Positions 6,174 to 22,836 of a stretch of DNA of 64,000 nt are shown here, in pieces (the stretch's first letter is position 1; each line of letters begins with the position of its first letter). The notes beneath the pieces are model-generated. The model was not told where the DNA came from and ran no database searches. It saw nothing but the letters and a program-made list of their open reading frames with translations. This stretch comes from Burkholderiales bacterium Ga0077544. GTDB taxonomy: Bacteria > Pseudomonadota > Gammaproteobacteria > Burkholderiales > Burkholderiaceae_D. Location: NCBI GenBank assembly GCA_001464355.1, contig LNEU01000018.1, forward strand, positions 124,001 through 188,000, written 5' to 3'. The position numbers were made by a program, and so were the translations under genes.

Positions 6174-6338
6174 ATGGTCAGTACTATCCTGACGCATGCC
6201 AAACCGGCATGTGCAGTGCGATCTTTCGCCGCCCGTACAGTTCAGTTGCTTCGCATCAGAGTACCCGATGCGCATCTGAATCCAGTTACTCATTCGATAC
6301 ATATCGAAGGTGAAAAAAGCGGGGGCGTCTTTGCTTAA
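6174..6338 (+). CDS. Putative 54 aa small ORF upstream of and overlapping the glucan synthase start (not in the ORF track)
   Basis: ATG preceded by GGGAGGAAAAAAT; open to TAA at 6336-6338; translation MVSTILTHAKPACAVRSFAARTVQLLRIRVPDAHLNPVTHSIHIEGEKSGGVFA; overlaps the GTG start at 6310 by 29 bp. Confidence 0.35.
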   Translation: MVSTILTHAKPACAVRSFAARTVQLLRIRVPDAHLNPVTHSIHIEGEKSGGVFA

Positions 6339-9300
6339 TTCCATTCTTCAATATCTTCGATTTGGTTCCTTAGCCCGAATTGACGAGAACTTTCCCGACG
6401 AGCCGCCGCGCGTAGAAATTTTCAGCGCGGAAAAACTTGAGTCCCACGCGATCCATTTGGCGACTATTCAAAAAATAGGTGCCGCGCCACATCGCATGTC
6501 GATTTCTGCGTTGGCGCGCGCAGATGGTCGTACATTGATTGCGGCACATGCCGCGATAGGGCGCGCTGCTGGCGAGCGCCGTGCGATTACGTCAGCGGCG
6601 GAATGGCTGCTCGATAATCTGCATGTGGTGCAAGAAAACGTGTCGGGCGTGGTCGAAAACATGTCCCGCCGCGTATACAAATCATTGCCCAAGCTGATGG
6701 ACGGCGAATATGCCGGCATGCCGAGAATTTATGCCTTGTGCCAGGAATTTGCCGCACACACTGATAATCACTTTGATACCGATTTATTTCTGCGTTTTGT
6801 CAGTGCGTATCAACGCGTACAAGCGTTGACGATGGCCGAGCTGTGGACCTTGCCTGTGGTCATGCGTGCAGTCTTGCTCATGCATTTGCGTCGGGTGGCA
6901 ATGCGTGTGGTCAGAGCACAGGCAGCACGGCAAGCTGCCGACGATCTGGCCAATGAGCTGATCGCAATAGCACAAAAGACACCGGAAAAGGAGCAGCCGG
7001 CGATTGTGTTGCCTGCCGGACATTTGCGTCAGCCTTTTGTCGTACAACTGGTGCAACGCCTGCGTTACCAGCAACCGGGTTTTACGCCCTTGCTGGATGC
7101 GCTCGGTACGCGACTGGTCGATCAGAATCTGACCATTGACGATCTGGTATTGCGCGAGCATACAACGCAAGTTGCCTCCAATCAGACCATACGCAACATC
7201 ATCACCAGCATGCGCGGCATTGCAGCTTTCGATTGGCGTACATTTTTTGAATCGGTGAGTCTGGTCGAACAAAGACTGCAAACCTTGCCGGCTTATGCTG
7301 TACTGGATTTTCTGACGCGCGATCGCTATCGCAACATCATTCAGCAAATCGCACTGAATGCACGCTATTCGGAGCAACAGATTGCCGATGCATTGGTACG
7401 CAAGATCGAGTATCACCGCAGCCAGATGCAGCATGACGAGATCGTTGCCGATGAACGCGCGCTCGATCCCGGCCATTATCTGCTGGCCGGCGGCCGCAAT
7501 GACCTCGAAGCTGAACTGGGTTATCAGCCGCATTTTTCACAAAAATTCAAGCGTCATTACATTGCGCACGCCAGCCTGTATTACCCGCTGACGATTATTA
7601 CTCTGGCTTGTGTTTTGCTAGCACTTCCATTGCTGAGCGTGCACGACAATACAGTGCCGGATATTGCCTTGGCATTGCTGATCATGGCCGGATTTTTCCC
7701 CGCATCCGATATTGCGATTACGGTGGCAAACAAGATATTGATGCGACTGTTCTGGCCGCGTCATTTACCGCGCCTTGAGCTGGAAGATATTTCGGCAAGC
7801 CTGCGTACATTTGTCGCCGTTCCGGTGATGTTGACCAGCGAAGAGGGGATAGAGGAAGAAGTACGCCAACTGGAAGCGCATTACCTTGCCAATCCGGACG
7901 GTGAAGTTTATTTCACGCTGCTGTCGGATTGGGCAGATGCGAAACAAGAGCATATGCCGCAGGATATTTACCTGCTGGAAAAAGCACGCAGGGATATCGC
8001 TGAATTGAACGCCCGTTATGGCCCTAGTGTCAGCGGTCAGACGCGTTTTTATATCTTGCACAGGAAGCGTTTGTGGAATGCAGCGGAAGGTCGCTGGATG
8101 GGATGGGAACGCAAGCGCGGCAAGTTGCATGAATTTAATCGATTGCTGCGCGATGCGCACGATACCTCGTTTTTGCTTGATGCAATTGCGTTGCCGCAAA
8201 CTGTACGTTACGTGATTACGCTGGATGCCGATACGCGCATGCCTATCGGCGCCTTGCGCGCTTTGGTGGGTGTTGCTGCACATCCATTGAACCAGCCGCG
8301 CCATGATCCGAAAACCGGTCAGGTGATAGAAGGTTACGGCATCCTGCAGCCGCGCATCACACCGACTTTGCCGATGCGGCAGGAGCGCACATTGTATCGA
8401 CGCTTTTTCTCGGCACGCGGTGGCATCGATCCGTACGGCGGTGCAGTACCTGATGTGTACCAGGATGTATTTGGCTGGGGTAGCTATTCCGGCAAGGGTT
8501 TGTACGATGTCGACGCGTTCGAACGTGCGCTTGCCGGCAAGGTGCCGGAAAACACCATGCTCAGCCACGATCTGTTTGAAGGTGCGTTGGCGCGGGTGGC
8601 GCTGGTCAACGATGTAGAGTTATTTGAAGACTTCCCGTCGCATGTCGAAGAAGCCGCTGCACGTCAGCATCGCTGGACGCGTGGTGATTGGCAATTGCTG
8701 CCGTGGCTGCTGAATGGCGGTCGCGCGTCTATGTCTATTATCGATCGATTGAAGATCGTCGATAACATGCGGCGCTCCCTGATGGCGCCGGCGATTCTGG
8801 CCCTGCTGGTGACGGCGTTCTGTCTGCAATCTTCACCGATCTGGCCGTGGCTGGTGCTGGGCATAGTCGGCCTGGCTGCGCCCTCGGTATTCCAGTTTGT
8901 ATCCGATCTGCTGCCGCATCGCGATGACCTGTCATTCAAGGCGCACTGGCGGCGCGGGCTGGCCGTGTTGCCTGACACTGTTGCAGTGGTATTCATTTCG
9001 CTGGCGGTGCTGGCGCAACATGCGTGGCTGATGCTGGATGCGATATTCCGCACCTTGGTGCGCCTGATGTTTACGCGCAGGAAGTTATTGCAATGGGTAA
9101 CCTCGGCCCAGGTCAGAAAATCCAAGCAATATTCGATTTCCAGTTTTGCATGGCGTGGGCGCATGGGGGTGCTGCTGGCGCTGGCGATAACCGGGATTGT
9201 GTATCTGGCCAATCCGGATCGCTGGACGCTGGTGCTGCCGCTCTGTTTGCTGTGGCTCTTGAGTCCGCTTATTGCACGCTGGATCAGTCTGCCGCCGGTC

Positions 9301-12300
9301 GACAAGAATGTCGAACTGCTGGACGCGGATGAAGAAATGGAATTGCGTCTGACCGCGCGTCGTACCTGGCGCTTCTTCACGACTTTTGTGGTTGCACAAG
9401 ATAACTACTTGCCACCAGATAATTTCCAGGAAAAGCCATATCCCGTCATCGCACATCGCACGTCGCCAACCAATTTTGGCCTGTATCTGCTTTCCGTTGC
9501 CACCGCGCGCGATTTTGGCTGGCTGGGTTTGGCCGACATGATGCAACGGCTGGAAGAAACCATGGAAACGCTGCACAAGCTGCCGCGTTATCACGGTCAT
9601 TTTTTCAACTGGTATGAAACAGAGAGGCTGGAAGTTTTGTTACCGCGCTATGTCTCGACGGTGGACAGCGGCAATCTTGCCGGCCATCTGTTTGTACTGG
9701 CACAGGCATGCAAGGATGCGCGTGAACAAACCGTGCTGCGGCCTGGTGTCGCTGCCGGTATCGGCGATACCGTGCTGTTACTGCGTTTTGCAATTGAGGG
9801 GGTGGGTCGGGAGTCGCGTACACAAACTGTCAGCATCACCGAACTGCGCAAGTGTGCTGAACAATTCAGTGATCTGTTACTGGCAAATGGCAGCGGCTTT
9901 TCCACATATGCTGGCTGGCAAAAACTGGTCGAACGTGCAGAAGACCTGGTGGATCTGGCACAGGCATTTTCTGTAGAAATCCAGCTTCCCGACAACGAAG
10001 TACTGACTTGGACGCATGAATTGCGTGAAGCTGTGCGTACGCATTGTGCCGATTTTGTTGCAGTTGTGCCGTGGGCGCATCTGGAAGCGCAGGATCGCGA
10101 ACAAAGACAGAATGCCGAGCTGTGGCAACTCATCAACGCACAAATGTCTGGGGATATCGTGCTGGAAGAGTTGCCTGAGCGTTACGCAGTGGCGCGGCAG
10201 GAAGTCAGTCGTTTGTTTGCATCGCAAAACAGGCTTGACCCCGATGTGATGTCGCAGGCTCTGTTTGACGAGCTGGATACGATATTGAATCAAGCCGTAC
10301 TGCTGTCAACCAAATGGTTGTGGCGTCTGGAAACGCTGGAGAATTCCGCGCGTCAAATGGCGACTGACATGGATTTCCGTTTCCTTATGTCAGCTGAGCG
10401 CAAGCTGTTTTCTATCGGCTACAACGTCGACGAAGGACGGCTGGACGATAGCTATTACGATTTGCTGGCATCCGAAGCAAGACTCGCCAGCATGGTGACG
10501 ATCGCCGATCGCCAGGTGCCGCCATCACACTGGTTCCGTCTTGGTCGTCGCATGCTGGCGGGGACGGATTATCCGGTGCTCGCTTCATGGTCAGGTTCCA
10601 TGTTCGAATATCTGATGCCGTCCTTGGTGATGTCGTCGCCGCGTGGCAGCATGCTGGATCAAACCTGTCGCGGCATCATCAAACGGCAAATCGAGTATGG
10701 CAAGGAGCGCAAGGTGCCTTGGGGTGTCTCGGAATCGGCAATGAATGTCCGCGACCGCGCTTTTACCTATCAATATTCAGCATTCGGCGTGCCCGGTCTG
10801 GGCCTCAAGCGCGGACTGGAAAAGGATATAGTCATCGCCCCTTATGCGACTGGTCTGGCGGCGATGTACATGCCGAAAAGTGCTGTTGACAATTTCCGTC
10901 GATTGACCGGCATGGGTGCGGTCGGGCGTTACGGCTTTTATGAAGCGCTGGATTTCACGCCTGGTCGCCGTGCAGAAAATCAGACGATGGCGATCGTGTA
11001 TGCATACATGGCGCATCATCAGGGTATGTTGCTGGTCGCACTGGGCAATGTCATCAACAAAAACGTGATGCGACATCGCTTCCATCGCGAACCCATCATT
11101 CGCTCAGCCGAACTGCTCTTGCATGAATCGCAGCCGCGCTGGATACAGCCGGCTTCTCTGGCCATCAGCGACGATCTGGAACGGCCTACCGTGGTTGCGC
11201 CGGAATCGGGTGTGGCGCGTCATTTCTACAGTGCAATGACGGCGACGCCAGAAACGCAATTGCTGTCGAATGGACATTATGCAGTGATGCTGACGGCCGC
11301 CGGCTCAGGCTACAGTCTGTGGAACAAGCTGGGCGTGACGCGCTGGCGCGAAGATGCAACGCGCGATCAATGGGGCAGCCATTTGTATCTGCGCGATTCG
11401 GATAGCGGCAAATTCTGGTCGGCTTGTTATCAGCCGACTGCGGTCGAGCCGGATTCCTATGAGGTCAAATTTGCCGAAGATCGTGCGCGTATTTCGCGTG
11501 TGGACGGTACGATTTCCAGCATGCTGGAAGTGATTGTGTCGCCCGAGGATGATGCCGAGTTGCGCCGTCTGACGCTGACTAACAACGGCACGCGTGCGCG
11601 CACGATAGAAGTGACTTCGTATATGGAAGTACTGCTGGCACCAGTGGCGGCGGACGTCGCGCATCCTGCCTTTTCAAATCTGTTTGTCGAAACCGAATAC
11701 CTGCATGAAGTACGCGGACTGCTGGCGTCGCGTAGGCCGCGCAAGGATGGCGAAACGCGTCCGTGGGCTGCGCATGTGGTGGCGCGTGGCGAGGGTAGCA
11801 GTGCCATCGGAATCGAGTATGAAACCGACAGGGCGCGTTTCATCGGACGCGGTCAAGGCGTCAACCAACCGCGTTCGATCAGCGATGGTCGTCCATTGTC
11901 GAATACTGTCGGCGCAGTGCTGGATCCGATTTTCAGTCTGCGCGTGCGCCTGCGGATAGAACCGGGAGAAGTCTCGCATCTGGTCTTCACCACGATGGCT
12001 GCGAACTCGCGTGAAGAAATCATCAGCCTCGCTGATAAATATCACGACGGTTCAACCTTCGCGCGGATTTCCGCATTGGTGTGGACGCATGCGCAAGTGC
12101 AGTTGCATTACTTGCGCATCGAGCACTACGAGGCGGAATTGTTCCAGCATATGGCGAGCCGCATCTTGTTTTCGGATGTGTCATCGCGTGCCAGCCGGCG
12201 TGTGATTCGGGCCATGTCCTTGAGTCATTCCGGTTTGTGGGGGCAGGGAATTTCCGGCGACAGACCGATACTCTTGCTACGCATGGCCAAACAGGAAGAC

Positions 12301-15108
12301 TTGCGACTGGTTTCGCAATTACTGCGTGCGCAAGAATATTGGCGCATGAAGCAATTGCCGGTTGATCTCGTCATCCTGAATGAAAAAGGTGCGTCTTACG
12401 CGCAAGAGCTGCAGGTCTCGATGGAGAGCATGGTCAGAGCTGCGCAAGCATTTTCTGCGCAGCAGGAACAGGCCGAGCGTGGCGGTGCGTATATCGTGCG
12501 TGCCGATCTGATTACCGACGATGAACGTACCTTGTTGCTGGCTGCGGCACGCGTGGTGCTGGAAGGCGGACAAGGCAGTCTGGCCGAACAGATGCAGCCG
12601 CGTGCCGACAGCGATGTCGATGCACCTTTCTCATGGCTAGAGCGCGATATGCGTGTGCCGCAAGGCGCGCCTGCCGGACCGGCACCACAACTGACCTTGT
12701 TCAACGGTCTGGGCGGTTTCGATCAGAACGGCCGCGAATACGTGATTGTGCTGGGGCAGGATCAGGAAACACCTGCGCCGTGGATTAACGTGATCGCCAA
12801 TCCTGTGTTCGGCTTTACCGTTTCCGAACGGGGTGCCGGTTATACGTGGAGTTTGAATAGCCGCGAAAACAAACTGACGCCCTGGTCGAATGATCCGGTC
12901 TCCGATCCGTCCGGCGAAGCCTTCTATATACGCGATGAAGAAAACGGCGCCTTGTGGAGTCCGACCATGTCGCCGATACGTGTGCCGAACGCGACGTACA
13001 CGACACGCCATGGCCAAGGTTACAGTCGCTTCGAATTGACGTGCAGCGGCATCGCCAGCGAGTTGCTGCAGTTTGTCAGTTGGGACGATCCGGTCAAGAT
13101 TTGCCGCTTGCGTTTGAAAAACGTCTCGCGTAATTCGCGTCGTTTGTCACTGACGTCTTATGTCGAATGGGTGTTGGGCGCAGCACGTACCAATAACATG
13201 CCTTTTGTCGTAACCGAACGCGATGCAGAGAGCGGTGCGCTCTTTGCGCGTAACTCCTGGAATATCGAGTTCGGCCAACGCGTTGCATTCGTGGATCTGT
13301 GCGGCAGTCAAACCGCATGGACTGGCGACCGCAAGGAATTCATAGGTCGCAACGGCAATCTGCAAAAACCGGCGGGCCTGATAATGGGTCATAGCTTGTC
13401 GAATCGCGTCGGTGCCGGTTTCGATCCCTGCAGTGCAATGCAAACACTGGTTGAAATCGCCCCTGGTGCGGAAACCGACATCGTGTTCTTGATGGGACAG
13501 GCGGAGTCGGCAGAAGCCGCGCGCGAATTGGTACAGCGTTACCGCGAAGCCGATATCGATGAAGTGTTCGCAACCAGCCAGCGTAACTGGAGCGAGATCC
13601 TGCATACGGTACAGGTGGAAACGCCGGATCGTTCGATGGATTATTTGCTCAACGGCTGGCTCTTGTATCAAACCTTGAGTTGTCGTTTCTGGGCGCGTAC
13701 TGCGTTTTATCAGGCTGGCGGTGCGTATGGTTTCCGCGATCAATTGCAGGACACGCAAGCCTTGGCGCTGGTTGCTCCCAAGCTGGCACGCGATCAAATT
13801 TTGCGCGCATCTTCACGCCAATTCCCGGAAGGCGATGTTCAGCATTGGTGGCATCCGCCTAGCGGACGCGGTGTGCGTACACATATCTCGGATGACTTGA
13901 TCTGGTTGCCGTATTGCGCGGCGCATTATGCCGATGTGACTGGTGATAGGCAGATCTACGACGAGATGATTCCTTTCCTGGAAGGCGATTTACTACCGCT
14001 GGAGAAGGAAGACAATTACTTCGAAGCGAAAATCTCTAATGAAAAAGCTACGGTCTACGAGCATTGCGCGCGCGCTCTGGATCATAGCCTGCGCACAGGT
14101 CCGCATGGTTTGCCCTTGATGGGTGGCGGTGATTGGAACGATGGCATGAATCGCGTTGGTCACGACGGCAAGGGCGAAAGCGTCTGGCTGGCGTGGTTCC
14201 TGTATGCAACGCTACTGCGCTTTGCGCCGGTAGCAGAAGCGCGTGGTGACCAGATTCGTGTCACCCGCTGGCTGCAACACGCAGAGAAGTTGAAAGCTGC
14301 CACCGAGAAACATGCATGGGATGGCGCTTGGTATCGCCGCGCATATTTCGACGATGGCACGCCTTTGGGTTCTGCCAGCAATGCCGAATGTCGTATCGAT
14401 TCGATTGCGCAAAGCTGGTCGGTGATTTCCGGCGCGGGCGAAACCGGACGCTCGCAACGCGCAATGGAATCGGTCGATCAATATCTGATTCGTCCAGGTG
14501 ATGATTTGATTCTTCTGTTCACGCCACCATTCGACAAGACGCCGCTCGATCCTGGTTACATCAAAGGCTATTTGCCGGGCGTGCGTGAAAACGGCGGGCA
14601 GTACACGCATGCTGCAGTGTGGTGTCTGATTGCATATTCAATGATGGGCAAGGGTAGTCAGGCCCACGATTTGTTCAAGATGATCAACCCGGCTAATCGC
14701 ACCAGCACGCGTACCGGCATGGCTGCATACAAGGTGGAACCGTATGCAGTTGCCGCCGATATTTATGCCGAGTCGCCGCACGTACGACGCGGTGGCTGGA
14801 CCTGGTATACCGGCGCAGCCGGCTGGTTATATCGCGCTGGTGTCGAGTTCATACTCGGCTTGCAAGTCAAGGCAGACAAGCTCAGCCTGGACCCATGCCT
14901 GCCGCCGGAATGGCGTAATGCGAAACTGCATTATCGATTTGGTCGCTCTATATACAACATCAATATTGTCAATCCGGATGGCGTCAGCAAAGGCGTGGTG
15001 AGGGTTGAGCTGGATGGCGTTGCGGTAGCGGACAAGGTTGTTACCATGTTCGACGATCGCGCAACGCATACGGTGACCGTTGTGATGGGGTTCGACAAGC
15101 TGAGCTAA
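6310..15108 (+). CDS. ndvB: Cyclic beta-1,2-glucan synthase (NdvB/ChvB family: GT84 membrane region, glycoamylase-like region, C-terminal GH94-like region)
   Basis: 2932 aa ORF; YVITLDADTRMP, GGIDPYGGAVPDVYQD, DLFEGALARVALVNDVELFEDFPS, RHRWTRGDWQLLPWL; C-terminal GGDWNDGMNRVG and GAAGWLYRAGVEFILGL as in GH94 phosphorylases; GTG start. Confidence 0.93.
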   Translation: MKKAGASLLNSILQYLRFGSLARIDENFPDEPPRVEIFSAEKLESHAIHLATIQKIGAAPHRMSISALARADGRTLIAAHAAIGRAAGERRAITSAAEWLLDNLHVVQENVSGVVENMSRRVYKSLPKLMDGEYAGMPRIYALCQEFAAHTDNHFDTDLFLRFVSAYQRVQALTMAELWTLPVVMRAVLLMHLRRVAMRVVRAQAARQAADDLANELIAIAQKTPEKEQPAIVLPAGHLRQPFVVQLVQRLRYQQPGFTPLLDALGTRLVDQNLTIDDLVLREHTTQVASNQTIRNIITSMRGIAAFDWRTFFESVSLVEQRLQTLPAYAVLDFLTRDRYRNIIQQIALNARYSEQQIADALVRKIEYHRSQMQHDEIVADERALDPGHYLLAGGRNDLEAELGYQPHFSQKFKRHYIAHASLYYPLTIITLACVLLALPLLSVHDNTVPDIALALLIMAGFFPASDIAITVANKILMRLFWPRHLPRLELEDISASLRTFVAVPVMLTSEEGIEEEVRQLEAHYLANPDGEVYFTLLSDWADAKQEHMPQDIYLLEKARRDIAELNARYGPSVSGQTRFYILHRKRLWNAAEGRWMGWERKRGKLHEFNRLLRDAHDTSFLLDAIALPQTVRYVITLDADTRMPIGALRALVGVAAHPLNQPRHDPKTGQVIEGYGILQPRITPTLPMRQERTLYRRFFSARGGIDPYGGAVPDVYQDVFGWGSYSGKGLYDVDAFERALAGKVPENTMLSHDLFEGALARVALVNDVELFEDFPSHVEEAAARQHRWTRGDWQLLPWLLNGGRASMSIIDRLKIVDNMRRSLMAPAILALLVTAFCLQSSPIWPWLVLGIVGLAAPSVFQFVSDLLPHRDDLSFKAHWRRGLAVLPDTVAVVFISLAVLAQHAWLMLDAIFRTLVRLMFTRRKLLQWVTSAQVRKSKQYSISSFAWRGRMGVLLALAITGIVYLANPDRWTLVLPLCLLWLLSPLIARWISLPPVDKNVELLDADEEMELRLTARRTWRFFTTFVVAQDNYLPPDNFQEKPYPVIAHRTSPTNFGLYLLSVATARDFGWLGLADMMQRLEETMETLHKLPRYHGHFFNWYETERLEVLLPRYVSTVDSGNLAGHLFVLAQACKDAREQTVLRPGVAAGIGDTVLLLRFAIEGVGRESRTQTVSITELRKCAEQFSDLLLANGSGFSTYAGWQKLVERAEDLVDLAQAFSVEIQLPDNEVLTWTHELREAVRTHCADFVAVVPWAHLEAQDREQRQNAELWQLINAQMSGDIVLEELPERYAVARQEVSRLFASQNRLDPDVMSQALFDELDTILNQAVLLSTKWLWRLETLENSARQMATDMDFRFLMSAERKLFSIGYNVDEGRLDDSYYDLLASEARLASMVTIADRQVPPSHWFRLGRRMLAGTDYPVLASWSGSMFEYLMPSLVMSSPRGSMLDQTCRGIIKRQIEYGKERKVPWGVSESAMNVRDRAFTYQYSAFGVPGLGLKRGLEKDIVIAPYATGLAAMYMPKSAVDNFRRLTGMGAVGRYGFYEALDFTPGRRAENQTMAIVYAYMAHHQGMLLVALGNVINKNVMRHRFHREPIIRSAELLLHESQPRWIQPASLAISDDLERPTVVAPESGVARHFYSAMTATPETQLLSNGHYAVMLTAAGSGYSLWNKLGVTRWREDATRDQWGSHLYLRDSDSGKFWSACYQPTAVEPDSYEVKFAEDRARISRVDGTISSMLEVIVSPEDDAELRRLTLTNNGTRARTIEVTSYMEVLLAPVAADVAHPAFSNLFVETEYLHEVRGLLASRRPRKDGETRPWAAHVVARGEGSSAIGIEYETDRARFIGRGQGVNQPRSISDGRPLSNTVGAVLDPIFSLRVRLRIEPGEVSHLVFTTMAANSREEIISLADKYHDGSTFARISALVWTHAQVQLHYLRIEHYEAELFQHMASRILFSDVSSRASRRVIRAMSLSHSGLWGQGISGDRPILLLRMAKQEDLRLVSQLLRAQEYWRMKQLPVDLVILNEKGASYAQELQVSMESMVRAAQAFSAQQEQAERGGAYIVRADLITDDERTLLLAAARVVLEGGQGSLAEQMQPRADSDVDAPFSWLERDMRVPQGAPAGPAPQLTLFNGLGGFDQNGREYVIVLGQDQETPAPWINVIANPVFGFTVSERGAGYTWSLNSRENKLTPWSNDPVSDPSGEAFYIRDEENGALWSPTMSPIRVPNATYTTRHGQGYSRFELTCSGIASELLQFVSWDDPVKICRLRLKNVSRNSRRLSLTSYVEWVLGAARTNNMPFVVTERDAESGALFARNSWNIEFGQRVAFVDLCGSQTAWTGDRKEFIGRNGNLQKPAGLIMGHSLSNRVGAGFDPCSAMQTLVEIAPGAETDIVFLMGQAESAEAARELVQRYREADIDEVFATSQRNWSEILHTVQVETPDRSMDYLLNGWLLYQTLSCRFWARTAFYQAGGAYGFRDQLQDTQALALVAPKLARDQILRASSRQFPEGDVQHWWHPPSGRGVRTHISDDLIWLPYCAAHYADVTGDRQIYDEMIPFLEGDLLPLEKEDNYFEAKISNEKATVYEHCARALDHSLRTGPHGLPLMGGGDWNDGMNRVGHDGKGESVWLAWFLYATLLRFAPVAEARGDQIRVTRWLQHAEKLKAATEKHAWDGAWYRRAYFDDGTPLGSASNAECRIDSIAQSWSVISGAGETGRSQRAMESVDQYLIRPGDDLILLFTPPFDKTPLDPGYIKGYLPGVRENGGQYTHAAVWCLIAYSMMGKGSQAHDLFKMINPANRTSTRTGMAAYKVEPYAVAADIYAESPHVRRGGWTWYTGAAGWLYRAGVEFILGLQVKADKLSLDPCLPPEWRNAKLHYRFGRSIYNINIVNPDGVSKGVVRVELDGVAVADKVVTMFDDRATHTVTVVMGFDKLS

Positions 15109-17986: not shown

Positions 17987-18712
17987 ATGAGTAAATTGAC
18001 CCTAGACCGCATCCTGCAATCGCAGGGATTCGGCACCAGAAAATACTGTCGCGGCCTGGTCGAAGACGGCGAAGTCAGCATCAATGGCGAAGTTGTTGAC
18101 AGCATCAAGACGTCTTTCGACACGACCGATTTCGAATTCACGATTTTCGAAGAAGTGTGGCGCTATCGCGAGCACGTTTACATCGTGTTGAATAAACCGG
18201 CGAACTTCGAATGTTCACGCAAGCCCAGCCATCATCCCGGCGTATTGACCTTGCTTCCTGAACAATTCACTTGGCGCGACTTGCAACCTGTGGGCCGTCT
18301 CGATCACGATACGACCGGCATGTTGCTGATGTCGGATGACGGTCCCTTCATTCATGCGCAATCTTCACCGAAGCGGCATATTCCAAAAGTGTATGTCGCG
18401 ACTACGCATGATCCTGTAACGCCTGAGTTGATCGCGCTGTTGCTTGGTGGCGTGCAATTGCATGATGAACCGGCTCCGTTGGCAGCACAGACTTGCCGCA
18501 TGCTGGGTGATCATCAGATCGAAATTGTGCTGGAGCAGGGGAAATATCATCAGGTCAAGCGGATGCTGGCTGCGGCGGGGAACCATTGTTCGGCTTTGAG
18601 CCGGGTGGCGATTGGAGAATTGGCGCTGGAGTCGTTGGGGTTGGAAGAGGGTGAGTGGGTTTATTTGGATGCCGCGCAATTGGCTTTGCTTCGGGCGGTT
18701 GCTGACGCTTAA
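17987..18712 (+). CDS. rsuA: 16S rRNA pseudouridine synthase, RsuA-like
   Basis: S4-like N-terminus; VGRLDHDTTGMLLMSDDG; KVYVATTHDPVT; EGKYHQVKRML-like motif (EQGKYHQVKRMLAAAGNHCSAL). Confidence 0.88.
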   Translation: MSKLTLDRILQSQGFGTRKYCRGLVEDGEVSINGEVVDSIKTSFDTTDFEFTIFEEVWRYREHVYIVLNKPANFECSRKPSHHPGVLTLLPEQFTWRDLQPVGRLDHDTTGMLLMSDDGPFIHAQSSPKRHIPKVYVATTHDPVTPELIALLLGGVQLHDEPAPLAAQTCRMLGDHQIEIVLEQGKYHQVKRMLAAAGNHCSALSRVAIGELALESLGLEEGEWVYLDAAQLALLRAVADA

Positions 18713-18730
18713 TAATTCTTTTCTTTCTTC

Positions 18731-19260
18731 TATGAGATTCAGTTGCCGGGGGTAGCCCGGCGGCTACTTACTTTCTTTGCTTCGCCAAAGAAAGTAAGCA
18801 AAGAAAGGCGACGCAGAAGCCGTTGCCCGCTGCGCGGGTACCCAAGTCAAACGATCATCAGTCGGGAGCACAAACAAACTCGCCTTCGGCTCAAACAGGT
18901 TTCCGCTTGCCTTGGCAACGTCACATGCGGCTAACGTCAAACGCAAATCCTAACTGCAACCTCCACAACCTTAATCACTTAATAATTTTTGAATTGGTTC
19001 GTGTCAATGCTGTTGCCGTTGAACTGCCGTTGAAGTTAAACCGCTGTGACGCTGCCGTTTGTGCAGAGCAGAAAATGGAAAAAGAAGTGAACGCTGTCTG
19101 AGCCGCAGGCGAGTTTCGTTCGCTTCCCATTTTTTGATTTGCACAAGCGGGAACCCGAAGGGCAGCGGCTGTGCGGTCGCTTTCTTTTGCTTACTTTTCT
19201 TGGCGAAGCAAGAAAAGTGAGTAGCCGCCGGGCTACCCCCGGCTAACCCACTCTCATCGA
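18731..19260. repeat. ~530 bp element bounded by ~110 bp imperfect terminal inverted repeats with nested perfect hairpins
   Basis: Left arm 18731-18843 matches the reverse complement of right arm 19152-19260, including an identical 24 bp core GCCGGGGGTAGCCCGGCGGCTACT (18745-18768 vs rc of 19220-19243); hairpin CTTACTTTCTTTG-cttcgc-CAAAGAAAGTAAG at 18767-18798 and cognate hairpin at 19190-19221. Confidence 0.93.
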
Positions 19261-19304
19261 AGAGATGAACGCGTCAATTCCCTCAGTACGCAAAACATCA
19301 AACA

Positions 19305-22300
19305 TCAAAACCACTCCGCAGCATCTTCAATGCCACCAGGCGCATTTGCAGCAGCATCCTGCTCCATTTTCAACCAAATCTCAAACTGCTCTGCCGCCAT
19401 CGGCTTGCCAAAATAGTAGCCCTGCAACTCATCGCAGCCCGCCGCACACAGCAGGTTGACGTCCTGCTCCAGTTCCACGCCTTCGGCAACGACCTGCAAG
19501 CCCAGCGTATGTCCCAAGCCGATGATGGCGTTGGTGACGGCCAGATTGTGCGGTGAGATGTGGATGTTTTGCACGAAGGATTTGTCGATTTTTAGACGAT
19601 CGATCGGGAACTGGTATAGATAGTTCAGGCTGGAGTAGCCTGTGCCGAAGTCGTCGATCGATAAAGAAAACCCCAGCGCCTTGATTTGCTCCAGGGCTTT
19701 GATTGTGGCCGGTACGTCGTCCATCAGGATGGATTCGGTCAATTCCAGTTCGATGTTGCGGGCATCGGCGGGAATGTCTTTCAATGCGTGTTCCAGTACC
19801 TTCAGCAAGCCGCCTTCTTTCAGTTGCACTGCTGATAGATTGATCGATACCGGGATCTCGCCAAAACCACTGGCTTTCCATTCTACGTGCTGGCGCATCG
19901 CTTCTCTGATGATCCACGCGCCTATCGGGACAATCAAACCCGATTCTTCGGAGACAGGGATGAAGTTTGCCGGCTGGATCATCCCTTCGGTCGGATGCTG
20001 CCAGCGCACCAGGCTTTCGACGCCGGCCAGCCGGCCTGTCATCGCATTGATGCGTGGCTGATAATAGAGCACCAGTTCATTGCGTTCTACGGCATGGCGC
20101 AGATCGCTTTCCAGGTGCATGCGCTTGACGACGCGGTCATTCAGTTCAGCCGTGAAGAACTGGACATTGTTGCGGCCGCTTTCCTTCGCTTGATACATCG
20201 CTGAGTCGGCGTGACGCATCAGCAAGTCGATATCGTCGCCGTCATCCGGGTATAGCGCTATGCCTATGCTGCACGAGATATACAGTTCCATGCCGTCGAC
20301 AATATGCGCTTTTTGTATGCGTGGAATCATGCGCTGCTCGACCAGCTTGCCGACTTCTTCCGCACTTTCGACGTTGTTGAGAACGATGACGAATTCATCG
20401 CCGCCGAGTCGGCTGACGGTATCGCCTTCGCGCACTGTCTCTACCAGCCGACGCGCGACGGAGATCAGCAAGCCGTCGCCGATGTGATGCCCCATCGAGT
20501 CGTTGATGTTCTTGAATCTATCCAGATCGATGAACAAGACGGCGACCATACTTTCGGCGCGTTTGGCTTGCTGGATCGCCATCTGCAATCGTTCATCGAA
20601 CAGGAAGCGATTCGGCAACGCAGTCAGTACATCGTGATGCGCAAGATAGTGAATCCGTTGTTCATTGGCCTTGCGCTCGCTGATGTCGAGTGACATCGCG
20701 ATGTAATGCTGGATTTCTCCCTGCTTGTCACGTACCGCATTCATCACCAGCCAGGCCGGATACGATTCACCATCCTTGCGGTTGATCCACATTTCGCCTT
20801 GCCATGAGCCCTTGGTCGATGTGGTACGCGCGAGCGTCTTCGAGAAGTTTTTTTGATTGCGGTTCGATAGCAGCATCATGCTGTACTTGCCGATCAACTC
20901 ATGCAATTCATAGCCGGTGTTACGGCAGAATGCGCGGTTGACGGTGACGATGCGACCGCTGGCATCGATAATGACAATACTTTCCGACGACGCTTCGAAA
21001 ACCTTGGCCCACAGTTCCAGTCGCCGCTCCATGTACTTCATGTGATTGATCGGCGTGAAAGTCGTCAGCACAGCGGGTTGTCCCTGATAGTCGAGACAGC
21101 GCGCGGATACCAGTGCCCATGAAGGTTTTTCGCCGCCGGTCCAGCGCACTTCGAATTCATCAACGGTATCGGTGTCGTGCAAACGCTGGAAGAAGCGCGC
21201 ACGCAAGGCCGGCAGCATGCCGGTTTTCCATGGATTTTCGTCACGTCCGCCCAGCCAGGCGCGGGCAGCATCGTTCGCATGTAAAACCGCATGATCGGGA
21301 ATCGACGTCACCATCAATGGAATCGGAATGGCTTCTACCAGTTCATGCTGCGCCTGTGCGGCCCGGGTTTGTGCCACCAATTCCTGTTGTGCGATACGTT
21401 GCTGATCCAGTTGCTGCAGCATGCCATTGAAGCCTGTGACCAGGCGGCCGATTTCATCTGTACTGTCCCATGAAGAGCGCAATGAATAATCACCGGATCG
21501 GCTGACATTGTCTGCCACGCGCGCGAGATTGCGGATGGGCAGGGCGATCTGGCGTGCGACAAAAAATACCAGACTCAAAATCACCATCAACAGCAAAGCT
21601 GCGGTGCCCAGATGTTGCCACATGCGACTATAGGCTTCTGCGATACGCTCTTCCAGCAACCTGTGCATTTGCCGGTCGGCTGCGATCCACGCCGTTTGTA
21701 AATCACTTATCGCTGCGATTCTCAATGCTTGATAGTCGTCATCGTTTTCATCGACATTGATGATGCCGGCCATGGCCTGACTGGCAATCCGAAAACGCTG
21801 GATGGACACCAGCAAATCGTGACGCGATTTTTCCAGTTCAATGCGCAGAGTCGGACGGCTGGCAGCGAATGCCTCATCGTAATCGCTCTGAATCCCCTTG
21901 GTCGTGGCATCCAGCCTGCCTTCGAGAATCAGAAAGCGAGTCTGTTGGACAGACCGATTTTCATCGTAGATTTTTGGCAGTTGCGTGGCCAGATCGCCGG
22001 TACGGTCCAGCAGTTCCAGCAGCTCCGGAAAGCGCAAAACAATCAGCGACATCGTGTAATAGCTATCCAGGTCTGGGTCCAGGATCAGATTCGACTGATT
22101 GCCTATGCGCGTGAGCAAGGCGCGACCTTGTGTGAAAGCGTCGTCGGTTTGGGTCAGCGTATCGCGACCTGGCTGCGTTGCCTGCAGGGAGCTGGCAAAG
22201 GTTTCTGCCAGCTCCCTGCTACCCATGTCATTGCCATACTTGTTCTCTGCATCGCGAATTGACTGCGCATAATGCGCGGGCGGTAGCGTGCCAGATGCGG

Positions 22301-22508
22301 GATTGACCGATGCGATCAACGCTTCGCGGACGTTGGCAATGTACTGATTGCCAACGATTTCCTTGGTTGAAAAATTAATGGCGATAAATTTTTCATGGAT
22401 CAGGATGCCGGAAATGAAGATGACCGCAGTCAAATCGAGAAAGTAAATCAGTGCCAACTTGCGCCCGACTGTCAGACCACCGATTAATTTTGTAATACTT
22501 TTCTTCAT
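19305..22508 (-). CDS. Membrane-anchored HAMP-PAS-GGDEF-EAL protein (track start 22712; likely start at 22508, MKKSITKLIGG)
   Basis: Two TM segments, HAMP-like region, PAS-like region (ESIVIIDASGRIVTVNRAFCRNTGY), RLGGDEFVIVL, ESLVRWQHP, ELELTESILMDD, IDDFGTGYSSLNYL. Confidence 0.93.
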   Translation of the reverse strand: MKKSITKLIGGLTVGRKLALIYFLDLTAVIFISGILIHEKFIAINFSTKEIVGNQYIANVREALIASVNPASGTLPPAHYAQSIRDAENKYGNDMGSRELAETFASSLQATQPGRDTLTQTDDAFTQGRALLTRIGNQSNLILDPDLDSYYTMSLIVLRFPELLELLDRTGDLATQLPKIYDENRSVQQTRFLILEGRLDATTKGIQSDYDEAFAASRPTLRIELEKSRHDLLVSIQRFRIASQAMAGIINVDENDDDYQALRIAAISDLQTAWIAADRQMHRLLEERIAEAYSRMWQHLGTAALLLMVILSLVFFVARQIALPIRNLARVADNVSRSGDYSLRSSWDSTDEIGRLVTGFNGMLQQLDQQRIAQQELVAQTRAAQAQHELVEAIPIPLMVTSIPDHAVLHANDAARAWLGGRDENPWKTGMLPALRARFFQRLHDTDTVDEFEVRWTGGEKPSWALVSARCLDYQGQPAVLTTFTPINHMKYMERRLELWAKVFEASSESIVIIDASGRIVTVNRAFCRNTGYELHELIGKYSMMLLSNRNQKNFSKTLARTTSTKGSWQGEMWINRKDGESYPAWLVMNAVRDKQGEIQHYIAMSLDISERKANEQRIHYLAHHDVLTALPNRFLFDERLQMAIQQAKRAESMVAVLFIDLDRFKNINDSMGHHIGDGLLISVARRLVETVREGDTVSRLGGDEFVIVLNNVESAEEVGKLVEQRMIPRIQKAHIVDGMELYISCSIGIALYPDDGDDIDLLMRHADSAMYQAKESGRNNVQFFTAELNDRVVKRMHLESDLRHAVERNELVLYYQPRINAMTGRLAGVESLVRWQHPTEGMIQPANFIPVSEESGLIVPIGAWIIREAMRQHVEWKASGFGEIPVSINLSAVQLKEGGLLKVLEHALKDIPADARNIELELTESILMDDVPATIKALEQIKALGFSLSIDDFGTGYSSLNYLYQFPIDRLKIDKSFVQNIHISPHNLAVTNAIIGLGHTLGLQVVAEGVELEQDVNLLCAAGCDELQGYYFGKPMAAEQFEIWLKMEQDAAANAPGGIEDAAEWF

Positions 22509-22836
22509 TTTGACGATCAGCCAATAGAGGTTGTATTCTTTATCAGCAATGGACGTGCCATCGATTCGGATTAGATGGCAAAGATTTTGTGCTGATCCAA
22601 TCCCATAACGGTGCGCGAATCTGTTGCAACAATTTCTTTTGCGCAATTTCCGTGCGCTTGCGAGGATACAGGAAAATAGCGCCCATTTAACGCACCCAAG
22701 CGAGGCGCGCACTGATTTGTGTCTGCCATCGATTCAAATGTAAATTTCCGTTAAAGATGGATGCCAGCAACAAATTTGAATATCACGCACAGCCTTGATG
22801 CGATATGATTAATTTCATGTATGCATCATATTTTCA

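Follow-up and report, generated by a model that had tools for sequence, protein, structure and literature searches.

Several described families of repeated or structured bacterial sequences come close to the element discussed here. TwoAYGGAY was regarded by its discoverers as probably an RNA and not cis-regulatory (Weinberg et al. 2010, PMC2864571), and it has been proposed as a candidate for CsrA binding (PMC4333381). RsmU, an RNA described as limited to Xanthomonas and as stemming from the comEA 3′ UTR (PMC7694677), is a different RsmA-binding RNA and was set aside. Among DNA elements, the intrastrand triplex repeats TM-ECO share with our element a repeated bacterial Y-R-R mirror motif and form G/C-rich DNA triplexes (Holder et al. 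2015, PMC4666352), while REP/REPIN and MITE-like palindromes, and the GTAG-tagged REPs in particular (PMC3733652), share with it a GTAG beside a GC-rich hairpin, inverted pairing and intergenic spread. Here we analyze an inverted repeat from a 64,000-nucleotide stretch of the genome of Burkholderiales bacterium Ga0077544 (contig LNEU01000018.1, positions 124,001 to 188,000; henceforth the window). The genus label Herminiimonas, used below for this genome (G000) and twelve congeners, is a probable assignment.

Results and Discussion

The element lies where a prior sequence-only reading had placed it, between an rsuA-like pseudouridine synthase gene (17987–18712, + strand; from the ORF list, with its start set at MSKL) and a GGDEF/EAL gene (19305–22712, − strand; ORF list), both of which converge upon it. 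The imperfect inverted arms of about 110 bp with a 24-bp core described at the time are readily recovered: arms 18745–18828 and 19160–19243 are 83% complementary over 84 nt without gaps, a gapped comparison covers 105 nt at 83.8% identity (E = 7e-27), and the longest exact match, of 24 nt, joins 18745–18768 with 19220–19243. Each arm also holds the 13-bp hairpin with CTTCGC/GCGAAG loop that had been noticed (18767–18798 and 19190–19221). The arms are thus as claimed, but the element reaches beyond the ends first drawn, with a second inverted pair further inward (18876–18903 and 19089–19116) and with conserved outer tails that on both sides come near the stop codons of the neighboring genes. 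Aligned units and their consensus fold divide it into a left unit of the L type (18745–18930, − strand), with its 5′ end near CCGCATGTGACG, and a right unit of the R type (19041–19243, + strand), which starts with CCGCTGTGACG, as do solo copies. The 3′ tail of the left unit (18713–18744, − strand), conserved among copies, runs up to the rsuA-like stop codon, and that of the right unit (19244–19304, + strand), conserved in congeners, to the GGDEF/EAL stop codon. Between the divergent units lies a variable spacer (18931–19040, unstranded) with weak conservation among copies; the spacers of two other copies in this genome, L034 (C15) and L033 (C5), carry AACCGC hexanucleotide tandem repeats of varying length, which the window copy lacks. 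Elsewhere in the window, a 2932-aa ORF at 6310–15108, by eye cyclic β-glucan synthase-like (NdvB-like), is unrelated to the element.

Our searches constrained the hairpin only, as ACTTTYYTTG-N6-CAARRAAAGT or 11-bp forms thereof, and left the downstream purine run free. In oriented cases with an asymmetric purine core in the stem (AAGAAAA, AAAGAAAA, AAAAGAAA, AAAGAAAAA, AAGAGAAA, AAGAAA and similar), this run is the mirror of the stem core in 98 of 108 and a direct repeat in two, both of which are mirrors too; these counts, and those related to them, include related sequences. Such a mirror complements the other strand in parallel orientation and cannot form ordinary pairs with it, which is what a third strand requires. 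The six-base hairpin loop, in turn, pairs with bases past the purine run to form a helix designated S1. In alignment A1, which comprises 90 sequences without gaps and in the selection of which S1 played no part, this helix is 79% paired compared to 50% after shuffling, and its covariation amounts to 0.61 against 0.195, a value that no shuffle out of 500 reached and that slid registers do not approach. The hairpin stem, S2, is extended outward by compensating pairs (GC44/CG41; UA76/CG10; UA45/UG35/CG5/GC2), followed by a fourth pair that is G-U in 135 and G-C in 40 cases. Compensatory change in the hairpins, a check proposed by the sequence-only reading, is thus present.

On the outward strand the parts follow one another as S1a, a U-rich L1, S2a, S1b and S2b, and L1 runs in the same direction as S2b, the purine strand. 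The left triple-helix pseudoknot occupies 18766–18812 (− strand), with S1a at 18812–18807, L1 at 18806–18800, S2a at 18799–18786, the hairpin loop (S1b inside) at 18785–18780 and S2b at 18779–18766; the right one occupies 19176–19222 (+ strand), with S1a at 19176–19181, L1 (TTCTTTT) at 19182–19188, S2a at 19189–19202, the loop (S1b inside) at 19203–19208 and S2b at 19209–19222, both assigned from the mirror third strand and S1/S2 covariation. A second helix between hairpin loop and flanking strand, as in triple-helix H-type pseudoknots, is given by the S1 covariation, and a third strand in register (U.A-U, C.G-C) by the mirror covariation. These data support an H-type pseudoknot with its U-rich loop 1 in a major-groove triple helix, and we predict that this triple helix forms in solution. 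The C+.G-C triples require protonation, a point that we count against our explanation.

The order Y-loop-R-linker-R with a mirror third strand also fits the intrastrand triplex layout of Holder and co-workers, and the conserved structure could accordingly be one of DNA, be it a purine-motif intrastrand triplex or another single-stranded DNA fold of that kind. We consider this highly improbable. The free linker of about 3 nt that goes with a purine third strand is not what is found, as the linker bases pair and covary, and the covarying stem-adjacent pairs leave at most 1 nt to the purine third strand, which is awkward for B-form DNA and natural for an A-form loop 1. Judged from known geometry, the 0–1 linker nucleotides between L1 and S2a suit the deep A-form groove and thereby favor an RNA triple helix over a B-DNA purine triplex. 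The window motif is moreover A/T-rich, unlike TM-ECO, and its loop is paired as a pseudoknot. CsrA-type loops and a wobble strand bias also indicate RNA, and it is this bias together with the paired linker that led us to reject the DNA purine triplex.

The bias is as follows. On the outward strand the stem extension contains 76 U-G and 5 G-U pairs and no A-C. Across whole Herminiimonas units read on that strand, G-U and A-C number 77 and 0 (R type) or 40 and 2 (L type), against 17 and 34 or 6 and 16 on the opposite strand, and fold energies are likewise lower on the outward strand (−156 vs −135, −152 vs −131). An excess of G-U and not of A-C points to an RNA read on the outward strand. Just 3′ of the first pseudoknot, a GC-rich hairpin pairs through its loop with 3–4 bases ahead of its stem to form a second one. 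The partners in the left unit (18745–18766, − strand) are GTAG and the CTAC loop of hairpin GCCGGG-CCCGGC, an assignment based on complementarity of loop and pre-stem bases across taxa; in the right unit (19221–19243, + strand) GTAG at 19221–19224 pairs with loop CTAC at 19233–19236, the stem being 19227–19232/19238–19243. Other copies have TGC/GCA, CCCC/GGGG, TCC/GGA, TTG/CAA, CAG/CTG or CTCG/CGAG at these positions, and the mean complementary run is 2.80 in 119 distinct cases compared to 1.65 when shuffled (maximum of 1000, 1.96). The palindromes GTAGCC-CGGC-GGCTAC and CCGGG-GTAG-CCCGG of the sequence-only reading exist, and their overlap is accounted for by their being two halves of this one pseudoknot. 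A REP/RAYT reading of the GTAG was discarded, as it is replaced by TGC, CCCC, TCC, TTG or CAG that still pair with the loop; our units are also much larger than REPs and REPINs and have no known link to RAYT.

Genus-wide unit alignments comprise 206–212 columns with 74–76 pairs for a unit of about 205 nt. Despite sequence divergence, the R and L types have one fold in common, in which a 4-bp closing helix encloses a long hairpin and a small hairpin and is followed by the 3′ module. The sequences ahead of solo copies showed no conserved promoter, which counts against our explanation. With fold and strand given by comparative evidence, we infer that the arms are the 3′ ends of presumably transcribed, outward-read structured RNAs of about 205 nt. 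Structured RNA was one of the options offered by the sequence-only reading and is the one supported, now with a strand and a fold attached; its chromatin option found no support. The pseudoknots, the mirror third strand, the outward orientation, the TwoAYGGAY/CsrA link and the association with terminators and convergent genes were not part of that reading. Its view of the element as largely non-coding agrees with the base-pair covariation, which supports non-coding structure. The 63-aa frame that it reported is open in 30 of 44 inspected arms and broken by indels in the others, so that openness alone does not settle coding; in view of the frame shifts in some arms and structural covariation throughout, we did not treat it as a gene. 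The peptide string it named, like motif strings, gave no match in text searches of papers. The structure suggests that “hypothetical proteins” of the LLTFFASPKK type may be readings of a structured RNA gene.

The element belongs, as had been surmised, to a widespread repeat family, and its multi-copy spread is evident from comparison. Its own genome contains about 15 arm cores, distributed over five full pairs, one further pair cut short where a contig begins, three solo units of the right type and a single left-type arm where a contig ends. All twelve congeners possess the core (13 of 13 genus genomes with covariance model R1), and in the class, matches were obtained in 20 of 274 genomes by one-arm BLAST and in 33 of 143 with R1. 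The latter probably undercounts, given the variant core GTTTTGGGTTCCGTTTTTTGGACGAGCAAAAAATGGAAC at L403 (~1654–1701), where the module accepts another stem sequence. A pattern scan of named genomes returned mostly beta- and gammaproteobacteria, and also Selenomonadales, Myxococcota and a Chitinophaga, and an Ilyobacter (Fusobacteriota) megaplasmid has the core pattern in seven places; INPHARED phages and E. coli collections gave no match to the 48-nt consensus at E 0.01. Arrangements other than the outward pair occur: a Halothiobacillaceae MAG (L122) has an array of three same-orientation cores within 1.3 kb (~29–54, ~776–801 and ~1316–1341), a Xanthomonas (L151) has two tandem cores 400 bp apart, and a Pasteurella multocida plasmid record (L237, 3001–3045) has a solo module that starts 13 nt past the stop codon of dapF, in the gap separating this gene from a DUF484 gene that lies upstream of xerC.

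Gene context was assigned with a codon-usage gene caller, which replaced first-pass counts on raw ORFs. There are 46 distinct outward-facing pairs, mostly with an interior of 340–575 bp. Convergent genes flank 25 of 42 pairs (p = 2e-6 against one quarter), with arms mostly 26–160 nt from the gene stops, and in 53 of 77 solo units (p = 0.001) the gene on the RNA 3′ side turns its own 3′ end toward that of the RNA, so that comparison places the units by gene 3′ ends. From this position one could argue for a bidirectional termination or insulation element between convergent genes, with arms that act within read-through mRNAs of the neighbors, each of which the distal module would cap, and not as separate RNAs. 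We regard this as unlikely. Often an intrinsic terminator already stands between the gene and the element, many solo copies sit between tandem genes, and the structured 5′ domains and GGA hairpins would be left unexplained. Many solo copies have no same-strand gene upstream, so that their transcription from outside is not assured, a point against our own reading. Terminators are also met at the tails themselves: in 30 of 63 Herminiimonas units the 3′ tail ends, with “...CCAAT”, exactly at the A-run of the neighbor's intrinsic terminator, in many cases with near-constant tail length and unrelated hairpins. In controls, terminator-like hairpins number 20 of 63 in the mirror orientation and 16 of 54 in the 5′ flank.

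Closely related genomes differ by gain and loss of copies. In G010 (L220), the closest relative, the element is present but inverted at the intergenic site that it occupies in the window, as could result from inversion or gene conversion by way of the arms, whereas in G004 the site is empty. Three other sites filled in G000 are empty or scarred in a congener, and two of these scars retain the outer hairpin, the outcome one would expect if GCCGGG repeats had recombined it away by deletion between them. The search in relatives proposed by the sequence-only reading thus yielded empty sites, the presence/absence at orthologous positions typical of MITEs and other transposable elements, but no clear target-site duplication in the aligned sites. 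No transposase was seen in pairs with a long interior, which contain ordinary genes, so that an autonomous copy among these pairs was not favored. The RVT_1 reverse transcriptase (PF00078) is absent in 8 of 13 Herminiimonas genomes, including G000, G005, G010 and high-copy ones, for which reason a retroelement primed on terminator T-tracts, fitting in orientation, was not favored. The non-autonomous mobile element of the sequence-only reading is a plausible candidate. In its full form, a non-autonomous MITE- or SINE-like element would insert beside terminators, with the arms, or the 3′ ends of an RNA or single-stranded DNA, as the signal for a mobilizer and with a fold that serves mobility and not regulation. 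We rate this as possible but rather doubtful. Near-identical multiple copies within a genome, presence/absence, the inverted copy in the closest relative, tails that end at terminator A-runs and the right-hand terminator of C15 that is present in empty sites all speak for it. Against it stand fuzzy boundaries, the want of transposase, target-site duplication and, in most genus genomes, reverse transcriptase, control terminator counts that are not far lower, and deletion scars that account for part of the polymorphism. Mobility as such appears likely, if partly confounded by deletion.

An Rfam scan of the window gave no relevant match, TwoAYGGAY (RF01731) at its gathering cut-off of 43 bits matched neither the window nor its genome, and Rfam holds no family for the 3′ module. 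The pair of hairpins with AYGGAY/ANGGA loops that marks this family is missing from Herminiimonas units, in which a single one of 87 upstream hairpin loops carries GGA. The four Herminiimonas genomes tested (G000, G005, G009, G010) lack CsrA (PF02599), as does one other Burkholderiales genome tested; of 24 core-bearing genomes outside Burkholderiales, 23 encode it and the remaining one is 73% complete. In other class genomes, where the 5′ part differs, 47 of 150 upstream hairpin loops include GGA and 1 of 150 includes TCC, and downstream loops have GGA in 9 and TCC in 7 of 105. Two distances ahead of the core stand out for the GGA hairpins, near 61 and 88 nt, which fits a CsrA ligand with two sites. 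They thus appear to accompany CsrA, while the 3′ module appears to persist without it, in what is essentially one lineage contrast with no kinship correction. In gammaproteobacterial relatives, TwoAYGGAY scores above cut-off just 5′ of the core on the same strand (L396, 1501–1615 before a core at 1650–1695; L398, 2810–2938 before a core at 2946–2995), and 8 of 12 TwoAYGGAY-positive genomes are core-positive (hypergeometric p = 0.0009). About half of the best TwoAYGGAY loci have no recognizable module; at L397, L399, L400 and L402 no triple-helix module is recognizable downstream, and L397 and L400 have a simple hairpin instead. In the matches seen here the Rfam match ends before the triple helix and second pseudoknot. 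Like the window element, TwoAYGGAY is multi-copy and intergenic and, in gammaproteobacteria, has the same 3′ module directly downstream; the window element lacks AYGGAY hairpins. By these comparisons, which argue for modularity, the window element is itself not TwoAYGGAY, and our strict claim is of a new candidate 3′ RNA module common to TwoAYGGAY RNAs.

Conclusions

Our best explanation, to which we give an even chance, is that the element is a divergent gene pair for structured RNAs of about 205 nt read outward, with an exchangeable 5′ domain and a stable 3′ module. Each RNA would combine a lineage-specific 5′ domain with a conserved 3′ end of two consecutive pseudoknots, in the first of which S1 (4–5 bp) and S2 (~14 bp) would stack and the U-rich loop 1 would lie in the deep groove of S2 through U.A-U and C+.G-C triples. 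Such a rigid end may block 3′–5′ exonucleases and so set and stabilize the RNA 3′ end. In CsrA-bearing hosts the 5′ domain is predicted to be the CsrA-binding (TwoAYGGAY) domain, whereas CsrA-less Herminiimonas would carry another 5′ domain on the same stable end. The copies would be small non-autonomous insertions placed next to intrinsic terminators, most of them where two genes converge, and the distal module would also cap transcripts that read through from either side. By analogy we favor a 3′ stability or end-forming role for these repeat-borne RNAs beside host terminators. More tentatively, and with somewhat less than even confidence, we propose that this undescribed, phylum-crossing module is a transferable stable end for multi-copy regulatory RNAs, in which lineages swap the 5′ effector, with a CsrA sponge in hosts that have CsrA and something else in those that do not, and in which the RNA genes disperse as small terminator-aimed elements.

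The orphan Rfam family TwoAYGGAY hereby gains a candidate for its missing 3′ half and a testable link to CsrA, and covariation reveals a triple-helix pseudoknot repeated many times in bacterial chromosomes. With triple-helix H-type pseudoknots (telomerase RNA, SAM-II riboswitch) and 3′ triple-helix stability elements (viral ENE, MALAT1) the module shares a pyrimidine loop 1 that follows the stem 2 purine strand in parallel, predicted triples of the U.A-U type and a 3′-terminal position. It has no known ligand or telomerase context, differs from these RNAs in its two consecutive pseudoknots and its many bacterial genomic copies, and we know of no sequence relation to any of them. Should protection of RNA 3′ ends prove to be its role, bacteria would have in this module a counterpart of the ENE and MALAT1 triple helices, usable as a stability tag.
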